Origin: Acidobacteriota bacterium
GTDB taxonomy: Bacteria; Acidobacteriota; Thermoanaerobaculia; Thermoanaerobaculales; Thermoanaerobaculaceae
NCBI GenBank assembly: GCA_004298115.1
Contig: SCRJ01000047.1
Span: 1-40,706 of the forward strand
Length of the DNA: 40,706 nucleotides
Direction of reading: 5' to 3'
Shown here: piece after piece, positions 2,585-23,939 of the stretch
How positions within the stretch are numbered: the stretch's first letter is position 1
Layout: every line of letters starts with the position of its first letter
The notes under the pieces: model-generated
The model's database searches: none
The model's input: only the letters and a program-made list of their open reading frames with translations
What the model was told of the DNA's origin: nothing
Program-made: the position numbers and the translations under genes

Positions 2585-3697
2585 GTGTGGCTCGCGCTCC
2601 ACGGCCTGCGGCGCCACCCGCGCCGCACCGTTCTCACGGCGTCGGGCGTGGCGGCCGGAGCCTGCGCCTACGTGCTGCTGGTCGGTTCGGCACAGGGGCT
2701 GCTGCGGCACTTCCACGCCGTGACGACGTTCTTCGGCGCCGACTTCGTGGTCGAACAGGCTGGCGCGACCTCGCCGTGGGGTTCGGTGCTCTCGGAGACG
2801 GATGTCAGGGCGATGCGCTCGGCGCGGGGCATCGCCCACGCCTCGCGCATCGCCCTCGGCAAGACCAGGTTGATCGGGACACCGTACTTCCTCGTCTTCG
2901 GCCTCGACCCCGGCGAGCCGCTGCTCGCTCGCATGCCCGTCGTCGCCGGCCGGCCGCCGCGGCCGGACGCCGACGAGGTCTTGCTCGGCGAGCAGGCCGC
3001 CGCTCGTTTGCGCGCGGGCGTCATGCAGACGTTGGACGTGCGCGGCCGCCGTTTCATCGTGTCGGGCATCTACCGGACCGGCCACGCGGTCCTCGACGCC
3101 GGCGGCATCCTCGATCTGACCGTCACGCAGCGGCTCTTCAACCTCCGCGATGCCGTCAACCTCGTCTTCCTCGAGCTCACGGGCGATGTCGGCGCCCGGA
3201 CGGTCGCCGGCGAGCTGGCCCGGGCACGGCCCGGGCTCGAGATCATGCCCGCCAGGGTGTGGGGGGAGAGTTACGGCCAGTTCGAGCTGATCGACGCCTT
3301 CGCGCACTTCCTGGCGGGTCTCGCGGTGCTGATCGCGGCGTTCGGCGTGTCGAACGTGTTGCACATGTCGATCGCCGAGAGGTCGAGCGAGCTCGCCGTC
3401 CTGCGGGCGATCGGGTGGACCCGCCAGCGGGTGGCGGCGCTCGTCCTCGCCGAGAGCGCCGCGGTGGTCGTGCTGGGCGTGGTCATGGCTTTCGTCGTGT
3501 CCGAGCTGCTCCTCGTCCTGGCCCGCTCGGCCGCGGTCGGGTCGACGTTCACCGCCACCTTCCTGCCGCCTCACGTTTCCGCCGGCCTGTTCGCCGAGGC
3601 CGTCGCGGTTTCATTCATCGCGGCACTGCTCGGAGCGGTGGCGCCGCTGACCCGGGCCATCCGCATCCATCCGGCGACGGTGCTGCATGGAGTGTAG
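2585..3697 (+). CDS. ABC transporter permease, MacB/FtsX type (first of a pair)
   Basis: This 370-residue permease has one membrane helix at residues ~13-35, a long extracytoplasmic MacB-type domain, and three C-terminal helices (residues ~240-260, 288-310, 338-358). The cytoplasmic coupling motif ERSSELAVLRAIGW is the hallmark of FtsX-like permeases. The GTG at 2585 is chosen because it follows the upstream stop by one base and begins the WLALHGLRRHPRRT leader shared with its paralogue; the frame upstream of it overlaps a real gene. It is similar along its whole length to the permease at 3846-4958, which has exactly the same length, so the two probably arose by tandem duplication and form a heterodimer served by the ATPase at 4970. 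No adaptor (HlyD) gene is next to it. Substrate unknown; lipid or lipoprotein handling is common in this superfamily. Confidence 0.85.
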   Translation: MWLALHGLRRHPRRTVLTASGVAAGACAYVLLVGSAQGLLRHFHAVTTFFGADFVVEQAGATSPWGSVLSETDVRAMRSARGIAHASRIALGKTRLIGTPYFLVFGLDPGEPLLARMPVVAGRPPRPDADEVLLGEQAAARLRAGVMQTLDVRGRRFIVSGIYRTGHAVLDAGGILDLTVTQRLFNLRDAVNLVFLELTGDVGARTVAGELARARPGLEIMPARVWGESYGQFELIDAFAHFLAGLAVLIAAFGVSNVLHMSIAERSSELAVLRAIGWTRQRVAALVLAESAAVVVLGVVMAFVVSELLLVLARSAAVGSTFTATFLPPHVSAGLFAEAVAVSFIAALLGAVAPLTRAIRIHPATVLHGV

Positions 3698-3784
3698 AAA
3701 CCATTGAGGCCCCCAACCGACACCAGGTTCGACGCAGCGGACCGGCATGGTCTGCCGCGTGGCGCGACCGGCTCGCGGCGGTCT

Positions 3785-3812
3785 CCACGGCCTCCGGTCC
3801 ACGGCCCACGGC
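3785..3812. repeat. Degenerate heptamer repeat (GTGGNCC family, reverse)
   Basis: Four consecutive 7-bp units, three reading CCACGGC and one CTCCGGT, lie between the two permease genes. They are the reverse complement of a degenerate form of the GTGGTC(C/A) heptamers found at 17457, 21149, 27789 and 34692. The match is weaker here than at those loci. Confidence 0.45.
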
Positions 3813-3845
3813 CTGCCTTTTCCGGGCCGGGGGGACGGCTCCAGG

Positions 3846-4958
3846 ATGAACGCCGCGCTGCGTAGCCTGACCCGCCGGCCTCGCCGCACGATCCTCACCG
3901 TCGCCGGGGTGGCGGCCGCAGCGTGCGCATACATGCTCCTGGTCGGGTCGGCGCAAGGCTTCCTCGCCCAGTTCCGGAAACTGTCCACCCTCTTCGGTGC
4001 CGATCTCGTGCTGCTGCAGGCCGGCTCCACGTCGCCGTGGAACTCGGTGCTGCCCGTCCAACCCCTCGCGAAGCTGGGCGAAATCGGCGACATAGCCGGC
4101 GTTTCGCGGCTCGCGCTCGGCAAGGCAAGGATCGTGGGCGCCCCGTTCTTCCTGCTCTTCGGGCTGGATCCCGCCGAACCGCTCCTTGGCCACCTGGCGA
4201 TCGTCCGCGGGCGCACGCTGCGGCCCGGCGCCGACGAAATGCTCCTCGGGTCTCTGGCGGCGACACGGCTTGGAATCGGGTGCGGCGGCGAGATCGACGT
4301 GCGCGCCCGGCGGCTCCGAGTGGTGGGCGTCTACCGGACGGGTCACCGGGTCGTCGATGCGGGAGGCGTGCTCGATCTGGCCACGACGCAGCGTCTCTTC
4401 AACCTGCACGACGCCGTGAGCCTCGTGTTCCTCGACCTGGCGGCGCCCTCCGCGGCCGGGTCGGCGGCCGCTCGGATCACGGCGCGCGTCCCGAACGTCG
4501 TGGTCGCGAGCGCCGGCGAGTGGGTCGAGAGCTACGGCCAGTTGGTCGTGGTCGAGGACTTCGCCCGCTTCCTCGCGGTCCTGGCGTTGCTGATCGCGGT
4601 TCTCGGCGTTGCGAACGTGCTCCACGTCTCGGTGGGGGAGCGCACCCAGGAGCTGGCCGTTCTCCGAGCGATCGGCTGGCGCCGGCAGCGTGTGGCGGCG
4701 CACATCCTGACCGAGTGCGGGCTGGTGACGCTGCTGGGCGCCGCGGTCGCGGTGCCGATGGCCGAACTCATCCTCCTGCTGATCGACTCGGCGTGGTTGG
4801 GGTCGTTGGAAACCGCCGGCTTCCTGCCGCCGCACCTGTCCGGCGGTGTGATCCTGGAAGGAATTGTGGTTGCGTGTCTCGCGGGGCTGCTCGGGGCGGC
4901 GGCACCGCTGCTGCGTGCGATCCGCGTGCGGCCGGCGGACGCGCTGCGCGGCGCATAG
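3846..4958 (+). CDS. ABC transporter permease, MacB/FtsX type (second of a pair)
   Basis: This 370-residue FtsX-like permease starts at an ATG with a purine-rich GGGGG stretch about 10 bases ahead. It has an N-terminal helix (residues ~13-35), a periplasmic MacB-type domain, and three C-terminal helices. The ERTQELAVLRAIGW motif lies at the start of the cytoplasmic loop. Sequence blocks shared with the first permease include LLVGSAQG, FGAD, GSTSPWNSVL (GATSPWGSVL in the first), LFGLDP, YRTGH, DAGG and TTQRLFNL (TVTQRLFNL). Divergence is spread evenly, so this is not a very recent copy. The ATPase gene follows after 11 bases. The two permeases plus the ATPase make a complete 1:1:2 exporter or lipid-extracting complex by analogy with LolCDE and MacB-like systems; that function is inference. 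Confidence 0.85.
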   Translation: MNAALRSLTRRPRRTILTVAGVAAAACAYMLLVGSAQGFLAQFRKLSTLFGADLVLLQAGSTSPWNSVLPVQPLAKLGEIGDIAGVSRLALGKARIVGAPFFLLFGLDPAEPLLGHLAIVRGRTLRPGADEMLLGSLAATRLGIGCGGEIDVRARRLRVVGVYRTGHRVVDAGGVLDLATTQRLFNLHDAVSLVFLDLAAPSAAGSAAARITARVPNVVVASAGEWVESYGQLVVVEDFARFLAVLALLIAVLGVANVLHVSVGERTQELAVLRAIGWRRQRVAAHILTECGLVTLLGAAVAVPMAELILLLIDSAWLGSLETAGFLPPHLSGGVILEGIVVACLAGLLGAAAPLLRAIRVRPADALRGA

Positions 4959-19805: not shown

Positions 19806-20311
19806 GCGCCCGCGACGACCGCCGGGGCGTCGCGGACGCCGCGCCGTCACCGACCCAGGGCGGCCCCGCGCCGGCCCGGGGCGGTCTGCGGGGACTGTTC
19901 CACCGCCCGCGGATCCTCGGCGAGGTGAGGTTCGCGTTCGGCGCCGCCCTGATCATGGGGGTGGCCGGCGCGGCGGTGGCGTTCGGAATGCCGCCGCTCC
20001 GGCTGCTCGCGACCGATACCCCGGCGGCGCGGCTGTTCGTCCAGGGCTCCGTCGGGTTCGGCCTCGGCTGGTGGGGCGGGCTGTTCTGGAGCACCGCGCT
20101 CGTCTTCCACGCGCGCCGTTTCCGCCCGTTGCCGCCGCTCGCCGCGATGACGACGGCCACCTGGGTCGCCGGGACCCTTCTCGCCGCGACGGCGCTCGTG
20201 CTGCGCGCCGCGGGGGCCACGGTGGTGCTGAGCATCGGCGCCGGCGTGGTCGCGGCGACCGTCGCGGCGCGCCTCGTCGTGGCGCGCGCCGCCCGCCGGG
20301 CGGGTCGATGA
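19802..20311 (+). CDS. Small membrane protein of unknown function between prfA and prmC
   Basis: This 169-residue protein has a polar N-terminal region (residues 1-38) and then four predicted hydrophobic segments near 43-62, 80-98, 110-130 and 135-155. Its start overlaps the prfA stop (ATGA) and its stop overlaps the prmC start (ATGA), so all three should be translationally coupled. No family motif was recognised. The LALIMGVAGAAVAFG-like helices have no charged residues, so a transport or enzymatic role cannot be read from the sequence. The composition and coupling make it real coding sequence rather than a shadow. Its placement between a release factor and its methylase is unusual. Confidence 0.8.
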   Translation: MSARDDRRGVADAAPSPTQGGPAPARGGLRGLFHRPRILGEVRFAFGAALIMGVAGAAVAFGMPPLRLLATDTPAARLFVQGSVGFGLGWWGGLFWSTALVFHARRFRPLPPLAAMTTATWVAGTLLAATALVLRAAGATVVLSIGAGVVAATVAARLVVARAARRAGR

Positions 20312-21144
20312 CGATCGCCCAGCTGCAGGCGGAGGGGGCGGCGGCGCTGACCGCCGGCGACGGCCTGCCCAACCCGCGCCGCGAGGCGCGCTGGCTGCTC
20401 GCCCGCGCGCTGGGACAGACGGAGGCGTGGTTGCTCGCGCACGCGGAGGAACCGGTCGCCGCGGCGACGGAGGCGCTCTTCCGCACCTGGCTGTCGCGCC
20501 GCGCGGCGGGGGAGCCGGCGCACTACATCGTCGGCTCCTGCCCGTTCTGGGGCCGCCTGTTCGCTGTCACGCCCGCCGTCCTGATTCCCCGCCCGGAGAC
20601 CGAGCTGATCGTGGAGTGCGCCCTCACGGTTCCGGAGCCCGAGCGCCCTCGGATCCTCGACGTCGGCACCGGCTCCGGCTGCCTCGCGGTCACCCTCGCC
20701 CTCGAGCTGCCCGGCGCCAGCGTCGCCGCCACCGACGTGTCCCCGGAGGCCGTCGCCGTCGCGGCCGCCAACGCCCGCGCCCTGGGGGCGAGCGTCCGCT
20801 TCACCGCCGGCGACCTCGCGGCCCACGTGCGCGGGGAGTTCGACCTCGTGGTCGCCAACCTCCCCTACGTCCCCGCCGACGAGATCCCGGGGCTCGCCGT
20901 CGAGATCCGCGCGCACGAGCCGCACGTTGCTCTCGCCGGCGGGGAGGACGGCGCCGACCTGCTGCGGACGTTCATGGCCGACCTGCCGCGGCTGCTGGCG
21001 CCCGGCGGCCACGCGATGCTCGAGATGGGGCCGCGGCAGCGCGCGGGGCTGCGGGCCGCCGTCGCCGCGAGCGGCCTCGTCGAGATCCACCGCGGCCTCG
21101 ACCACGCCGGGATCGAGCGCGTCCTCGTCCTGCGCAAAGCCTGA
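20308..21144 (+). CDS. prmC: Release-factor glutamine N5-methyltransferase
   Basis: This 278-residue SAM-dependent enzyme methylates the GGQ glutamine of RF1 and RF2, which speeds peptide release. The N-terminal helical domain (residues ~1-80) binds the factor. PRPETE (94-99), the SAM loop DVGTGSG (118-124) and NLPY (184-187) follow. The catalytic motif is NLPY rather than the textbook NPPY, a substitution that I believe also occurs in other members. The last part (ALAGGEDGADLLR, EMGPRQ) is canonical. The ATG at 20308 overlaps the upstream stop. With prfA next door, substrate and modifier are co-transcribed. Confidence 0.94.
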   Translation: MTIAQLQAEGAAALTAGDGLPNPRREARWLLARALGQTEAWLLAHAEEPVAAATEALFRTWLSRRAAGEPAHYIVGSCPFWGRLFAVTPAVLIPRPETELIVECALTVPEPERPRILDVGTGSGCLAVTLALELPGASVAATDVSPEAVAVAAANARALGASVRFTAGDLAAHVRGEFDLVVANLPYVPADEIPGLAVEIRAHEPHVALAGGEDGADLLRTFMADLPRLLAPGGHAMLEMGPRQRAGLRAAVAASGLVEIHRGLDHAGIERVLVLRKA

Positions 21145-21148
21145 GACC

Positions 21149-21239
21149 GTGGCCCGTGGTCCGTGGTCCGTGGTCAGTAGTCAGTGGTCCGTGGTCAGTG
21201 GTCCGTGGTCAGTAGTCAGTGGTCAGTGGTCAGTGGTCA
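21149..21239. repeat. Heptamer tandem array (GTGGTC[C/A])x13
   Basis: Thirteen exact 7-bp units (91 bp) start 5 bases after the prmC stop. Units are GTGGTCC, GTGGTCA or GTAGTCA, with GTGGCCC first. The order of variants itself repeats (…TCA-GTAGTCA-GTGGTCC/TCA…), which suggests slippage or unequal exchange. It is far too short-unit for a CRISPR. Confidence 0.9.
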
Positions 21240-21268
21240 GAGCCGGCCGCGCCGGCCGCAGGCCGCGC
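21240..21268. repeat. 29-bp GC-rich module shared with 27803-27831
   Basis: The 29 bases directly after the heptamer array (GAGCCGGCCGCGCC… ending …GGCCGCGC) recur at 27803-27831 with a single base change, again directly after GTGGTCA. The two loci therefore share a composite heptamer-plus-module element. Confidence 0.8.
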
Positions 21269-21339
21269 GACCTCGAGCACCACGCTCGAAGACGAACACC
21301 CCACCGAAGGCAGGGCCTCGCCACTTGCGGCGTGTAGCC

Positions 21340-21463
21340 GCGCCGCCGAGAGTGGGCCAGATGCTAGGAGGGCAAGGCGGTCGGACCGGAGCGTAGCCGG
21401 AGGCTACGTGAGGACCCGAACCGCCGCAGCCCGACAACGCAGATGGTCCGCTATCGGCGGCGC
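21340..21463. other. Large foldable intergenic element
   Basis: This 124-base element can form one long hairpin with nested stems. The outer stem pairs GCCGCCGAGAGTGGGCCA (21342-21359) with TGGTCCGCTATCGGCGGC (21444-21461), 15 of 18 paired, extendable by 2 bp. The middle stem pairs GGCGGTCGG (21376-21384) with CCGAACCGCC (21416-21425). The apex pairs CGTAGCC with GGCTACG (21392-21408) around GGA. It lies in the convergent gap of prmC and the exporter operon. From memory, very similar sequences occur between genes in unrelated bacteria, so it may be a mobile palindromic unit or a terminator-like structure. Confidence 0.6.
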
Positions 21464-21474
21464 CCGGCGAACGC

Positions 21475-22707
21475 CTAGCCGCGGAGGGCTTCGACGGGGG
21501 TCAGGCGGGCGGCGGACAGCGACGGAAACACCCCCGCGAACAGCCCGACCGCCACGGCGAAGGAGATCCCGAGCACGAGGCCGAGCGGCGCCAGCGGCAG
21601 GCCGGCCTCGAACGACCCCGAGACCAGCCGTGTCACCACCACCCCGAGCCCGCACCCGAGCAGGCCACCGAGCGCGGACAGACTCGTGGACTCGACGAGG
21701 AACTGCAGCAGGATCGCCCGGTCGGACGCGCCGATCGCCTTGCGCAGGCCGATCTCGTACAGGCGCTCGGCGAGCGAGATCTTGAGCACCGAGTAGATGC
21801 CGACGCCGCCGACCAGCAGCGAGATGCCGGCGATCGCCGCCATGACGATCGTCCAGTTGCGCAGCATCTCCCGGATCCTGGCCTCGGCCTTGAAGATCTC
21901 GTCGGCGACGTTCTCGACGTGGAAGTCGCTGACGCCGTGGTGGGCGCGGCGCACGAGCCGCTCCGTCTCGGACTGCACGGCCGAAAAGTGCGTCTCGTCC
22001 GAGCTCTTGATCATCAGGAGGGCGATCCGGTCGCCGCCGCGCAGGTAGGCGCGGAACGCCTGGAGTCCCACCAGGACTCCGTTCATCTCCCGCCGTCCCG
22101 AGCCGCCGTCGTTGACCTGGTTGTTGCCGATCCTGGCCTCGACGCCGATCACCCGGAAGATCGCGTCGCCGAGCCGGATCTCGCGACCGATGGGATCCGA
22201 CGACCCGAACATCGCCTCGGCCAGCTCAGCGCCGAGCACCGCGACCCGCCGCCGCGCGGCCTCGTCGCGGGCGTCGAAGAAGCGGCCCGAGCTGACCTTC
22301 CGGTTGCGCACCTCGGCGTAGGACGGGGTGACGCCGTACACCCGCACCCGTCGCTCCTCGCCGCCGCCTTTCGCGATCGTGTCCAGCACCGACAGGGCCG
22401 CCACCGCGTCGTAGTCGCTGCCCCACGCGGCGAGGGAGTTGACGTCGCTGATCGCGAGGCCGTTGGAGAACTGCACCTTCTTGCGCTCGAGCGGGGTCTG
22501 CGGCGCCCGCTGCGAGATGAACATGACGCCGTCGTAGCCGAGGCCCTTGATCCCCTCCCACACCATCACCTTGATCGCCTCGATCATCGTCACCATCACG
22601 ACGACGGCGAGGGTGCCGAGGACCACACCGACGAGGGTCAGGCCGGAGCGCATCTTGTGGCCCCAGATCTCGGCGAAGGTCGTGCGGACGGCTTCCCAGA
22701 ACGCCAT
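21475..22707 (-). CDS. ABC transporter permease, MacB type (second of two)
   Basis: This 410-residue FtsX/MacB-like permease has an N-terminal helix (residues ~20-42), a periplasmic MacB domain (~50-285) and three C-terminal helices. The loop motif ERLYEIGLRKAIGA lies between the first two C-terminal helices. There is no fused ATPase. The ATG at 22707 overlaps the previous permease stop by one base (TGATG), which indicates coupled translation. It has exactly the same length as that permease and shares the fold, but the periplasmic domains differ enough to expect a heterodimer. It is the last gene of the adaptor-ATPase-permease-permease operon. Confidence 0.9.
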   Translation of the reverse strand: MAFWEAVRTTFAEIWGHKMRSGLTLVGVVLGTLAVVVMVTMIEAIKVMVWEGIKGLGYDGVMFISQRAPQTPLERKKVQFSNGLAISDVNSLAAWGSDYDAVAALSVLDTIAKGGGEERRVRVYGVTPSYAEVRNRKVSSGRFFDARDEAARRRVAVLGAELAEAMFGSSDPIGREIRLGDAIFRVIGVEARIGNNQVNDGGSGRREMNGVLVGLQAFRAYLRGGDRIALLMIKSSDETHFSAVQSETERLVRRAHHGVSDFHVENVADEIFKAEARIREMLRNWTIVMAAIAGISLLVGGVGIYSVLKISLAERLYEIGLRKAIGASDRAILLQFLVESTSLSALGGLLGCGLGVVVTRLVSGSFEAGLPLAPLGLVLGISFAVAVGLFAGVFPSLSAARLTPVEALRG

Positions 22708-23939
22708 CACTCGTACCTCAGCGCGACGACCGGGTCGAGCCGCGCGCCCCGTACGGCGGGGTAGAACCCCGCGACCAGGCCGACGACGGCCGCGGCGGCC
22801 ACGGAGACGACCAGCATCGCCGGGGTGAGGGCCGCGGTCTGGCCGAGCAGCGCCGCGATGCCGTGCACGAACCCGATGCCCACGGCGAGGCCGAGGACCG
22901 CCCCGATGCCGGTCACCACCAGCATCTCGCACATGAACTGCACGGCGATGTGCCACCCCTTGGCGCCGAGCGCCTTGCGGACGCCGACCTCGCGCATCCG
23001 TTCGGTGAACGACGCGAGCAGGATGTTGGCGTTCACGATGATGCTCACGATCAAGGAGATCAACCCGCAGATCATGAAGGTGAGGTCGTACACCTTGCCC
23101 TGCTGGTCCATCTGTTGCAGGCGGTCGACGCGGGCGTAGACCTGGAAGTCCTCGGCGCCGTGGCGAGCGAGCAGCAGGCGCTTCACGGCGGGCACCGCCG
23201 CCTTGGCCGCCTCGCGGTCCTTCAGGCGCATCGAGATCTCGTCGATGGCCTTCGAGCCGGCCCCGACCTGACGGACCTGCAGCGCGGTCACCGGGACGAG
23301 GATCAGGTCGTTCATCCAGTCGAGCGAGTTGTAGGTCTCCGCCTTGTTCCAGTAGAACTCGCGGTACGTGAGGACGCCCGCGACGCCGTACATCGTGTCC
23401 CCGAGCCGGATCGTCCGACCGATCGGGTCGTCGCTGCCGAAGAACTCGCGGGCCCGGTTCGCGCCGAGCACGCATACCGCGCTGCGGGTGGCGACGTCCT
23501 CCGCGCCGATGAAGCGGCCGCGCTCGACGAGGAGCTCGTGCAGCTCCTGATAGCGGGGCGCCACGCCCGAGACGCTCTCGTTGCGCGTCAGCCGGGCCGT
23601 GCGCACCGGCAGGTAGCGGTCCACCGTGGGTTCGACCAGGTCGAACCCCGGCACCGACGCGCGCACCGCCACGACGTCGTCCATGGTCAGGCCGAGACTC
23701 GCCTTCTCGCGCGCCGACGTGCGGACGTTCTCCAGCGGCTTCGACCACACCATGCACTTGAGCACCCCGCCCGACTCGGCGTAGTACTTCAGGCTCTGCT
23801 GCTTGCCGCCGGCGGTCAGGCCCATCGTGCCGATCACGGAGCCGACGCCGAGCACGACCCCGAGGGTCTGCAGGGCGGTGCGACCGGCGTGCGCGCGCAC
23901 CTCGGCGAAACCGTCCGCGACGGCCATCGCGAGGTTCAC
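22707..23939 (-). CDS. ABC transporter permease, MacB type (first of two)
   Basis: This 410-residue permease has an N-terminal helix (residues ~18-40), a periplasmic domain, and three C-terminal helices with the MREVGVRKALGAKG coupling motif. The C-terminus reads AVRGARLDPVVALRYE, typical of MacB-type proteins. The GTG at 23939 overlaps the ATPase stop (GTGA). With the HlyD-type adaptor and separate ATPase it forms a MacAB-like tripartite exporter in which two half-size permeases replace the MacB homodimer. Family members export macrolides, peptides or lipopeptides; the substrate here is unknown, and no outer-membrane TolC gene is in the operon. Confidence 0.9.
   Translation of the reverse strand: MNLAMAVADGFAEVRAHAGRTALQTLGVVLGVGSVIGTMGLTAGGKQQSLKYYAESGGVLKCMVWSKPLENVRTSAREKASLGLTMDDVVAVRASVPGFDLVEPTVDRYLPVRTARLTRNESVSGVAPRYQELHELLVERGRFIGAEDVATRSAVCVLGANRAREFFGSDDPIGRTIRLGDTMYGVAGVLTYREFYWNKAETYNSLDWMNDLILVPVTALQVRQVGAGSKAIDEISMRLKDREAAKAAVPAVKRLLLARHGAEDFQVYARVDRLQQMDQQGKVYDLTFMICGLISLIVSIIVNANILLASFTERMREVGVRKALGAKGWHIAVQFMCEMLVVTGIGAVLGLAVGIGFVHGIAALLGQTAALTPAMLVVSVAAAAVVGLVAGFYPAVRGARLDPVVALRYE

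Follow-up and report, generated by a model that had tools for sequence, protein, structure and literature searches.

The window, a 40,706-nt stretch of Acidobacteriota DNA (contig SCRJ01000047.1), carries one copy of a ~145-base imperfect palindrome, or DNA hairpin repeat. With moderate confidence, we read it as a genus-wide interspersed palindrome of the REP/MITE type that acts here as a stop-proximal hairpin at the 3' end of a gene and whose core belongs to a family found across several phyla.

A nested hairpin repeat between prmC and a permease gene

A previous sequence-only reading of the window had described a nested-stem element in a convergent gap. An inverted-repeat search of the window recovered the outer arms exactly as claimed (21340-21364 and 21439-21463; 25 nt, 80% complementary). 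Furthermore, the predicted fold of positions 21320-21480 contains the nested stems (9+9 bp in the outer part, a middle part and an 8-bp apex), with a paired region of 124 nt. This fold has an energy of -102.3 kcal/mol, compared to -71.5 +/- 4.0 for shuffled sequences (z -7.7), and 0 of 200 dinucleotide shuffles were as good. The gap is also convergent, as described: prmC ends at 21144 on the plus strand, and the stop codon of a permease gene lies at 21475-21477 on the minus strand, 11 nt from the stem. The permease resembles MacB/ADOP and scores below both curated cut-offs. The features of the region are:

20308-21144, plus strand: prmC (TIGR03534 over the cut-off), across the convergent gap from the permease gene
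21147-21240, plus strand: tandem array of heptamers of the GTGGTCC/GTGGTCA type, between prmC and the element
21250-21333, plus strand: extra repeat blocks, common to many but not all copies in the same genome
21334-21337, plus strand: GTAG at the stem foot, shared by 33 of 45 copies (9 of 45 have GCAG)
21340-21463, plus strand: the palindrome, short form of the element (columns 25-152 of alignment A1); plus is the better-folding strand
21340-21359, plus strand: 5' arm of the outer stem (9-bp blocks 21340-21348 and 21351-21359), pairing with 21444-21463
21360-21441, plus strand: core hairpin, homologous to a hairpin in other families and phyla
21391-21409, plus strand: apex hairpin (21391-21398 with 21402-21409); its counterpart in congener G002 directly precedes a group II intron
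21444-21463, plus strand: 3' arm of the outer stem, in two blocks (21444-21452 and 21455-21463); it is the end nearest the stop codon and the sole remnant in congener G007
21475-22710, minus strand: gene of the MacB/ADOP-like permease, with its stop codon (21475-21477) toward the right end of the element

The sequence shared among copies reaches to the left of 21340 and includes the GTAG (21334-21337), the blocks that extend to about 21250 and the heptamer array (21147-21240). Among the 36 copies of the same genome that have enough flank, 18-19 carry the motifs of the 21250-21333 blocks that we looked for and 22 are adjoined by heptamers.

Copies in the genus covary and fold preferentially on one strand

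A 161-base query of the element had 56 matches in its own 3.97-Mb genome, at about 40 separate places. Ten of the 59 genomes searched had matches, namely the element's own, all eight congeners and one of the 50 genomes outside the genus. These further copies bear out the suggestion that the element is more than a local structure. The copies are modular: a ~115-nt hairpin may stand in for the left pairing strand and, independently, a long G-rich block for the right one. The alternative hairpin module, TAGGGGCC..GATCACACTTTG..CAAAGTGTGAT.., is present in L015, L016, L020, L026, L028 and other long copies. Alignment A1 consists of 45 short copies, all from within the genus (44 of them from the genus work set and the prmC sites), with the long modular forms left out.

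RNAalifold predicted 44 pairs for the 45 copies, 25 of them with double compensatory changes, which is the kind of change among homologues that the sequence-only reading had called for. The arms of the outer stem correspond to columns 25-44 and 133-152 of A1, and double changes affect the column pairs 36/141, 37/140 and 44/133. With the consensus structure, which was taken from the same alignment and for that reason alone is favored over versions with slid partners, 97.5% of the pair cells were paired, compared to 86.4% in shuffled alignments and 28.6-47.9% with partners slid, and double-change cells numbered 202, compared to 58.8 and 9-24, respectively. As proposed, the mismatches of the outer stem are of the G.T type on the plus strand (146 G.T versus 18 A.C cells in 45 copies), an excess that is itself favored because the structure was that of the plus strand. 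The plus strand was the more stable in 45 of 45 genus copies and in 21 of 22, 62 of 68 and 36 of 37 copies of further sets. Thus, 164 of 172 copies have a one-strand folding preference.

In the window genus the element is placed at stop codons

The right end of the element is set by the neighboring stop codon and not by the middle of the gap. Genes were called with our own codon model on draft genomes, and 71 elements were placed using one of each pair of duplicate loci; copies at orthologous sites were counted separately and are not independent. The right-hand gene points at the element in 62 of the 67 elements that have one called. Among copies with the right end present, 51 of 55 have the right-hand gene pointing in and 49 of 55 have their right end within -20 to +30 nt of its stop codon, compared to 55% and 13.6%, respectively, for positions drawn at random in 115 gaps from these loci. 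Only 1 of 56 left ends is next to a stop codon. In 36 of 45 copies, no more than 15 nt separate the stop codon from the start of the stem (in one of these, the stop is inside the stem), and the median spacing between stem and stop is about 5 nt in the window genus. At locus L013, the stop codon of the gene is a TAG within the element. Reading by eye, we also found remnants that resemble older right ends between the stop codon and the element at L009, L016, L075, L077 and L085. The better-folding (plus) strand is antisense to the gene that the element abuts.

Placement at stop codons in a fixed orientation is a trait of the window genus rather than a general one. For example, the 22 copies in five other Acidobacteriota genomes have their nearest right-hand gene at least 185 nt away, and 8 of them lie between divergent genes. 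In a Desulfobacteraceae genome, 17 of 37 copies are stop-adjacent, counting either end and either orientation, versus 26% for random placement.

Sites last while their contents turn over

For 17 of 18 orthologous pairs, a copy elsewhere was closer than the orthologue. Core identity in these pairs was 0.69-0.83 in 16 and 0.95 and 0.98 in the other two, and the neighboring gene was 72-92% identical. Orthologous sites keep the element with its core exchanged in 17 of 18 pairs and, therefore, the sites last while their contents turn over. The prmC-permease site itself holds copies in congeners G008 and G005 (on two contigs in G005), another core variant in G003 and only the stop-proximal end in G007; it is empty in G004 and has other sequence in G001 and G006. 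In G002, the same site (L072, about 2955-4915) carries a group II intron with a maturase, identified by RF02003, RF00029 and TIGR04416, directly behind the apex hairpin. Rfam and NCBIfam matches to the intron and its maturase ruled out an IS110 insertion as the identity of this insert. The site orthologous to L035 has no element in either G004 or G006.

Relatives beyond the genus share the core hairpin

The sequence-only reading had proposed a covariance search with the stems. A model built from the 45 genus copies (R1) indeed matched genomes of other families and classes and records titled as other phyla. In the class, R1 matched 26 of 148 genomes: the element's own, eight congeners, one genome of another genus of the same family and 16 of other families. 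In an even sample of the phylum, it matched 22 of 297 genomes (own included) in a patchy pattern. Copy numbers from R1 are lower bounds, with up to 21 (class) or 10 (phylum) candidates scored per genome, and several genomes of the phylum sample reached that limit. The best scores reached 91 bits in family f19, of another class, and 69 bits in other families of the same class. The core is retained in distant members, whose outer stems are unrelated but still paired. In one f19 genome (G149, loci L313-L320), the core is within a ~500-nt repeat with other ends (CTGTCCAAAA../..TTTTGGACAG).

A pattern of the core matched at least 119 stretches. Among the 80 matches listed, record titles name Deltaproteobacteria/Thermodesulfobacteriota, Nitrospirae/Nitrospirota, Acidobacteriota, Gemmatimonadetes, Proteobacteria/Pseudomonadota and, in one record, Hydrogenedentota; nearly all are metagenome-assembled. 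Independently of the pattern, R1 recovered 49 of the 80 (E <=0.01), which cover five of the six titled groups, and missed 31, including the single Hydrogenedentota record, which is a member by the pattern only. Because the set was picked by an exact pattern, the letters fixed across phyla are partly a product of selection. A Burkholderia match (L212) lies inside a predicted gene, was missed by R1 and was not counted as a member. Across phyla, the common part is the core hairpin and the architecture, and the outer arms differ. The earlier claim of near-identical blocks in other phyla is therefore correct as to a related core in records titled as such but not as to near identity: searches by DNA similarity found a match in just one of the 50 genomes outside the genus.

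Relatives are mobile in a Desulfobacteraceae genome

Searches for the arms in four Desulfobacterota genomes returned 255, 562, 55 and 229 matches at up to 2 mismatches, numbers that do not equal copies one to one, whereas reversed-pattern controls returned 0-1. We examined 182 kb of the Desulfobacteraceae genome RAAP-1, in regions chosen for holding matches, and found 37 core-bearing copies. Target-site duplications were assessed in the 35 copies with both flanks, the other 2 being left out for short flanks. Duplications of at least 6 bp were present in 17 of 35 (1.6 expected) and of at least 7 bp in 14 of 35 (0.4 expected). They vary in length. For 15 of the 17 copies, the left duplicate stops 23-28 nt short of the inner arm, which places it immediately ahead of the outer arm. 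These duplications show that the relatives in this Desulfobacteraceae genome are mobile. The Desulfobacterota arms also occur without the core. Locus L300 (about 930-1070) has a Desulfobacteraceae copy with the same arms and an AT-rich interior replacing the core.

The 48 copies tested in the window genus gave no signal of target-site duplication (mean 4.25 versus 4.11; at least 7 bp in 8 versus 8.5). Hence, of the idea that the element is a mobile palindromic unit, the part concerning relatives stands for that Desulfobacteraceae genome, and the window genus has no detectable duplications. A flank test across phyla, which leaves out L212 and one L194 match and is not registered to element boundaries, found that 16 of 66 share at least 8 bp, compared to about 7.3 expected, several of them not at the ends.

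No autonomous partner with the same ends was found in the 182 kb of RAAP-1. As for a parent transposon, the one arm pair looked into, of two listed at 0.2-4 kb, encloses ordinary genes. Plasmids and phages were rejected as vehicles, since only short scraps or nothing matched in them, and the apex word is absent from viral contigs. Seven viral-contig stretches (L333-L339) hold the generic core pattern.

A proposed stop-proximal hairpin and its alternatives

We infer both a mobilizing enzyme and a host function for the element. The relatives would be moved in trans by an enzyme and, within the window genus, the contents of a site would be exchanged when copies recombine with one another or when an element re-inserts there. 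In two genomes, REPs are mostly less than 20 bp from the 3' ends of ORFs, and GTAG REPs often supply the TAG (excerpt of PMC3733652). In E. coli, REPs that lie no more than 15 nt from a stop codon are said to stall terminating ribosomes (excerpt of PMC12306157). The stop spacing of the element, which is that of the stalling E. coli REPs, and the location of REPs near ORF 3' ends therefore suggest by analogy, as far as these excerpts go, that the window copy acts as a hairpin at the 3' end of the permease mRNA, close to the stop codon. Such a hairpin could delay the terminating ribosome and/or block 3'-to-5' decay and read-through, as is reported for these E. coli REPs, and would thereby keep the convergent transcripts of prmC and the exporter apart. 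Overall, the sequence-only interpretation is partly supported.

The element could instead be a purely selfish MITE-like repeat without a host function, whose stop adjacency reflects target preference and the removal of harmful insertions. We consider this possible and somewhat unlikely. It would explain why, in the Desulfobacteraceae genome, many insertions lie in other settings and target-site duplications occur, as well as the arms that lack a core, the patchy distribution (22 of 297 genomes of the phylum sample) and the empty sites in G004 and G006. However, purifying removal alone would predict a looser arrangement than the fixed orientation and ~5-nt median distance to the stop codon seen in the window genus, and sites outlast their contents.

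The strand preference bears on function too. A better-folding strand that is antisense to the abutting gene is not what is predicted for a hairpin selected for that mRNA, and it leaves room for a role of the plus strand as RNA or single-stranded DNA. The core hairpin itself might be a traveling, strand-specific unit (RNA or single-stranded DNA) that lodged in unrelated inverted-repeat frames in several phyla, accounts for hundreds of arm matches in some genomes and, in some lineages, settled permanently behind stop codons as a 3'-end device used throughout the genome; we regard this as unlikely. The variable length of the duplications, together with one-strand folding in 164 of 172 copies, would permit an RNA-copied, SINE-like route.

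It is improbable that the element is a bidirectional terminator for convergent genes, spread by gene conversion and not mobile in the window genus. When both neighbors were called, 35 of 58 elements were between convergent genes, as such a terminator would be, but the other 23 were between co-directional genes. The exchange of cores at fixed sites and the lack of duplications in the window genus would agree with spread by gene conversion, but target-site duplications do occur elsewhere. Likewise, the Desulfobacterota arms have A5 and T5 runs on opposite sides, yet a terminator test of one Desulfobacteraceae copy gave no match. In the window, no T-run follows the stem, and the only terminator-like match (minus strand, 21316-21298, downstream in the permease sense) is outside the palindrome.

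Still less can be said for an oversized REP that depends on a RAYT (Y1 transposase) for its movement, which we hold to be very improbable. The GTAG at the foot of 33 of 45 copies, the presence of Y1_Tnp in 9 of 9 genomes of the genus and the preference of one strand for folding would all be in line with it. However, 19 of the 20 Y1_Tnp loci examined (20 of 29 matches listed) had no significant match to the element, and the one locus that has the element does not have it arranged as a flanking pair; RAYT mobilization was set aside on this count. Many of the Y1_Tnp (RAYT-like) genes of the genus (L104-L123) instead have inverted repeats of the GGTACCTGGTACC type on their flanks, which form a REP system of their own. 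Furthermore, the GTAG is not kept in relatives with other arms, outside the genus, and REPs, at 20-40 bp (excerpt of PMC3733652), are several times shorter than the element. Finally, an integron attC-like recombination site behind cassette genes has next to no likelihood: an imperfect, strand-specific palindrome right after stop codons and a group II intron in one copy would suit it, as some such introns insert at terminator or attC motifs (excerpt of PMC4424553), but neither strand of the window element has a GTTRRRY or RYYYAAC box, and the copies are scattered over many contigs beside ordinary genes.

Comparison with known systems

The Rfam check proposed in the sequence-only reading returned no family for the window element at gathering score: the window gave only a tRNA, and the loci of 20 relatives gave only tRNAs. 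Permissive scans added one match (E 1.2), far below its gathering score, and otherwise none. We also found no recognized description of the hairpin family in the open-licence literature that we searched by sequence words and topic. Hence, an abundant repeat of mostly uncultured members of several phyla is missing from Rfam and from the open literature that we searched. Its many natural copies with known compensatory changes make two old questions testable: what moves palindromic repeats without a RAYT, and whether hairpins just after stop codons serve genome-wide control or are parasites that the host tolerates. In addition, core exchange at fixed sites is a natural setting in which gene conversion between dispersed repeats can be studied cleanly.

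Integron attC sites carry the boxes GTTRRRY and RYYYAAC. Like them, the element is a strand-specific imperfect palindrome directly behind a stop codon; unlike them, it lacks attC boxes and its copies are dispersed rather than in cassette arrays. MITEs and ERIC/RU-type repeats are non-coding, intergenic sequences of 100-200 nt with inverted-repeat ends. The element resembles them in being non-coding and intergenic, in its size, in its inverted-repeat ends and in the duplications of its Desulfobacteraceae relatives. It differs in having a conserved core inside lineage-specific arms, in the lack of detectable duplications in the window genus and in that no parent transposon was found in the 182 kb of RAAP-1.

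The likeness to the GTAG- and CGTC-tagged REPs and BIMEs, as described in the excerpt of PMC3733652, lies in the high-copy extragenic palindromes, mostly downstream of genes and often less than 20 bp from the stop codon, in the GTAG at the foot of window-genus copies and in that some REPs have no known transposase. In contrast, the element has ~145 nt and a multi-part stem where REPs have 20-40 bp (same excerpt), is not associated with a RAYT at 19 of 20 loci, shares its core among families with unrelated arms and does not keep its GTAG outside the genus. As in the stop-proximal REPs of E. coli (excerpt of PMC12306157), its stem is within 15 nt of the stop codon (36 of 45 copies); unlike in those REPs, its better-folding strand is antisense to the abutting gene, and an effect on translation is only what we infer. 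The best reading of these comparisons is a new REP/MITE-like family, which departs from REPs in length and in RAYT association and is REP-like in its stop-proximal place.
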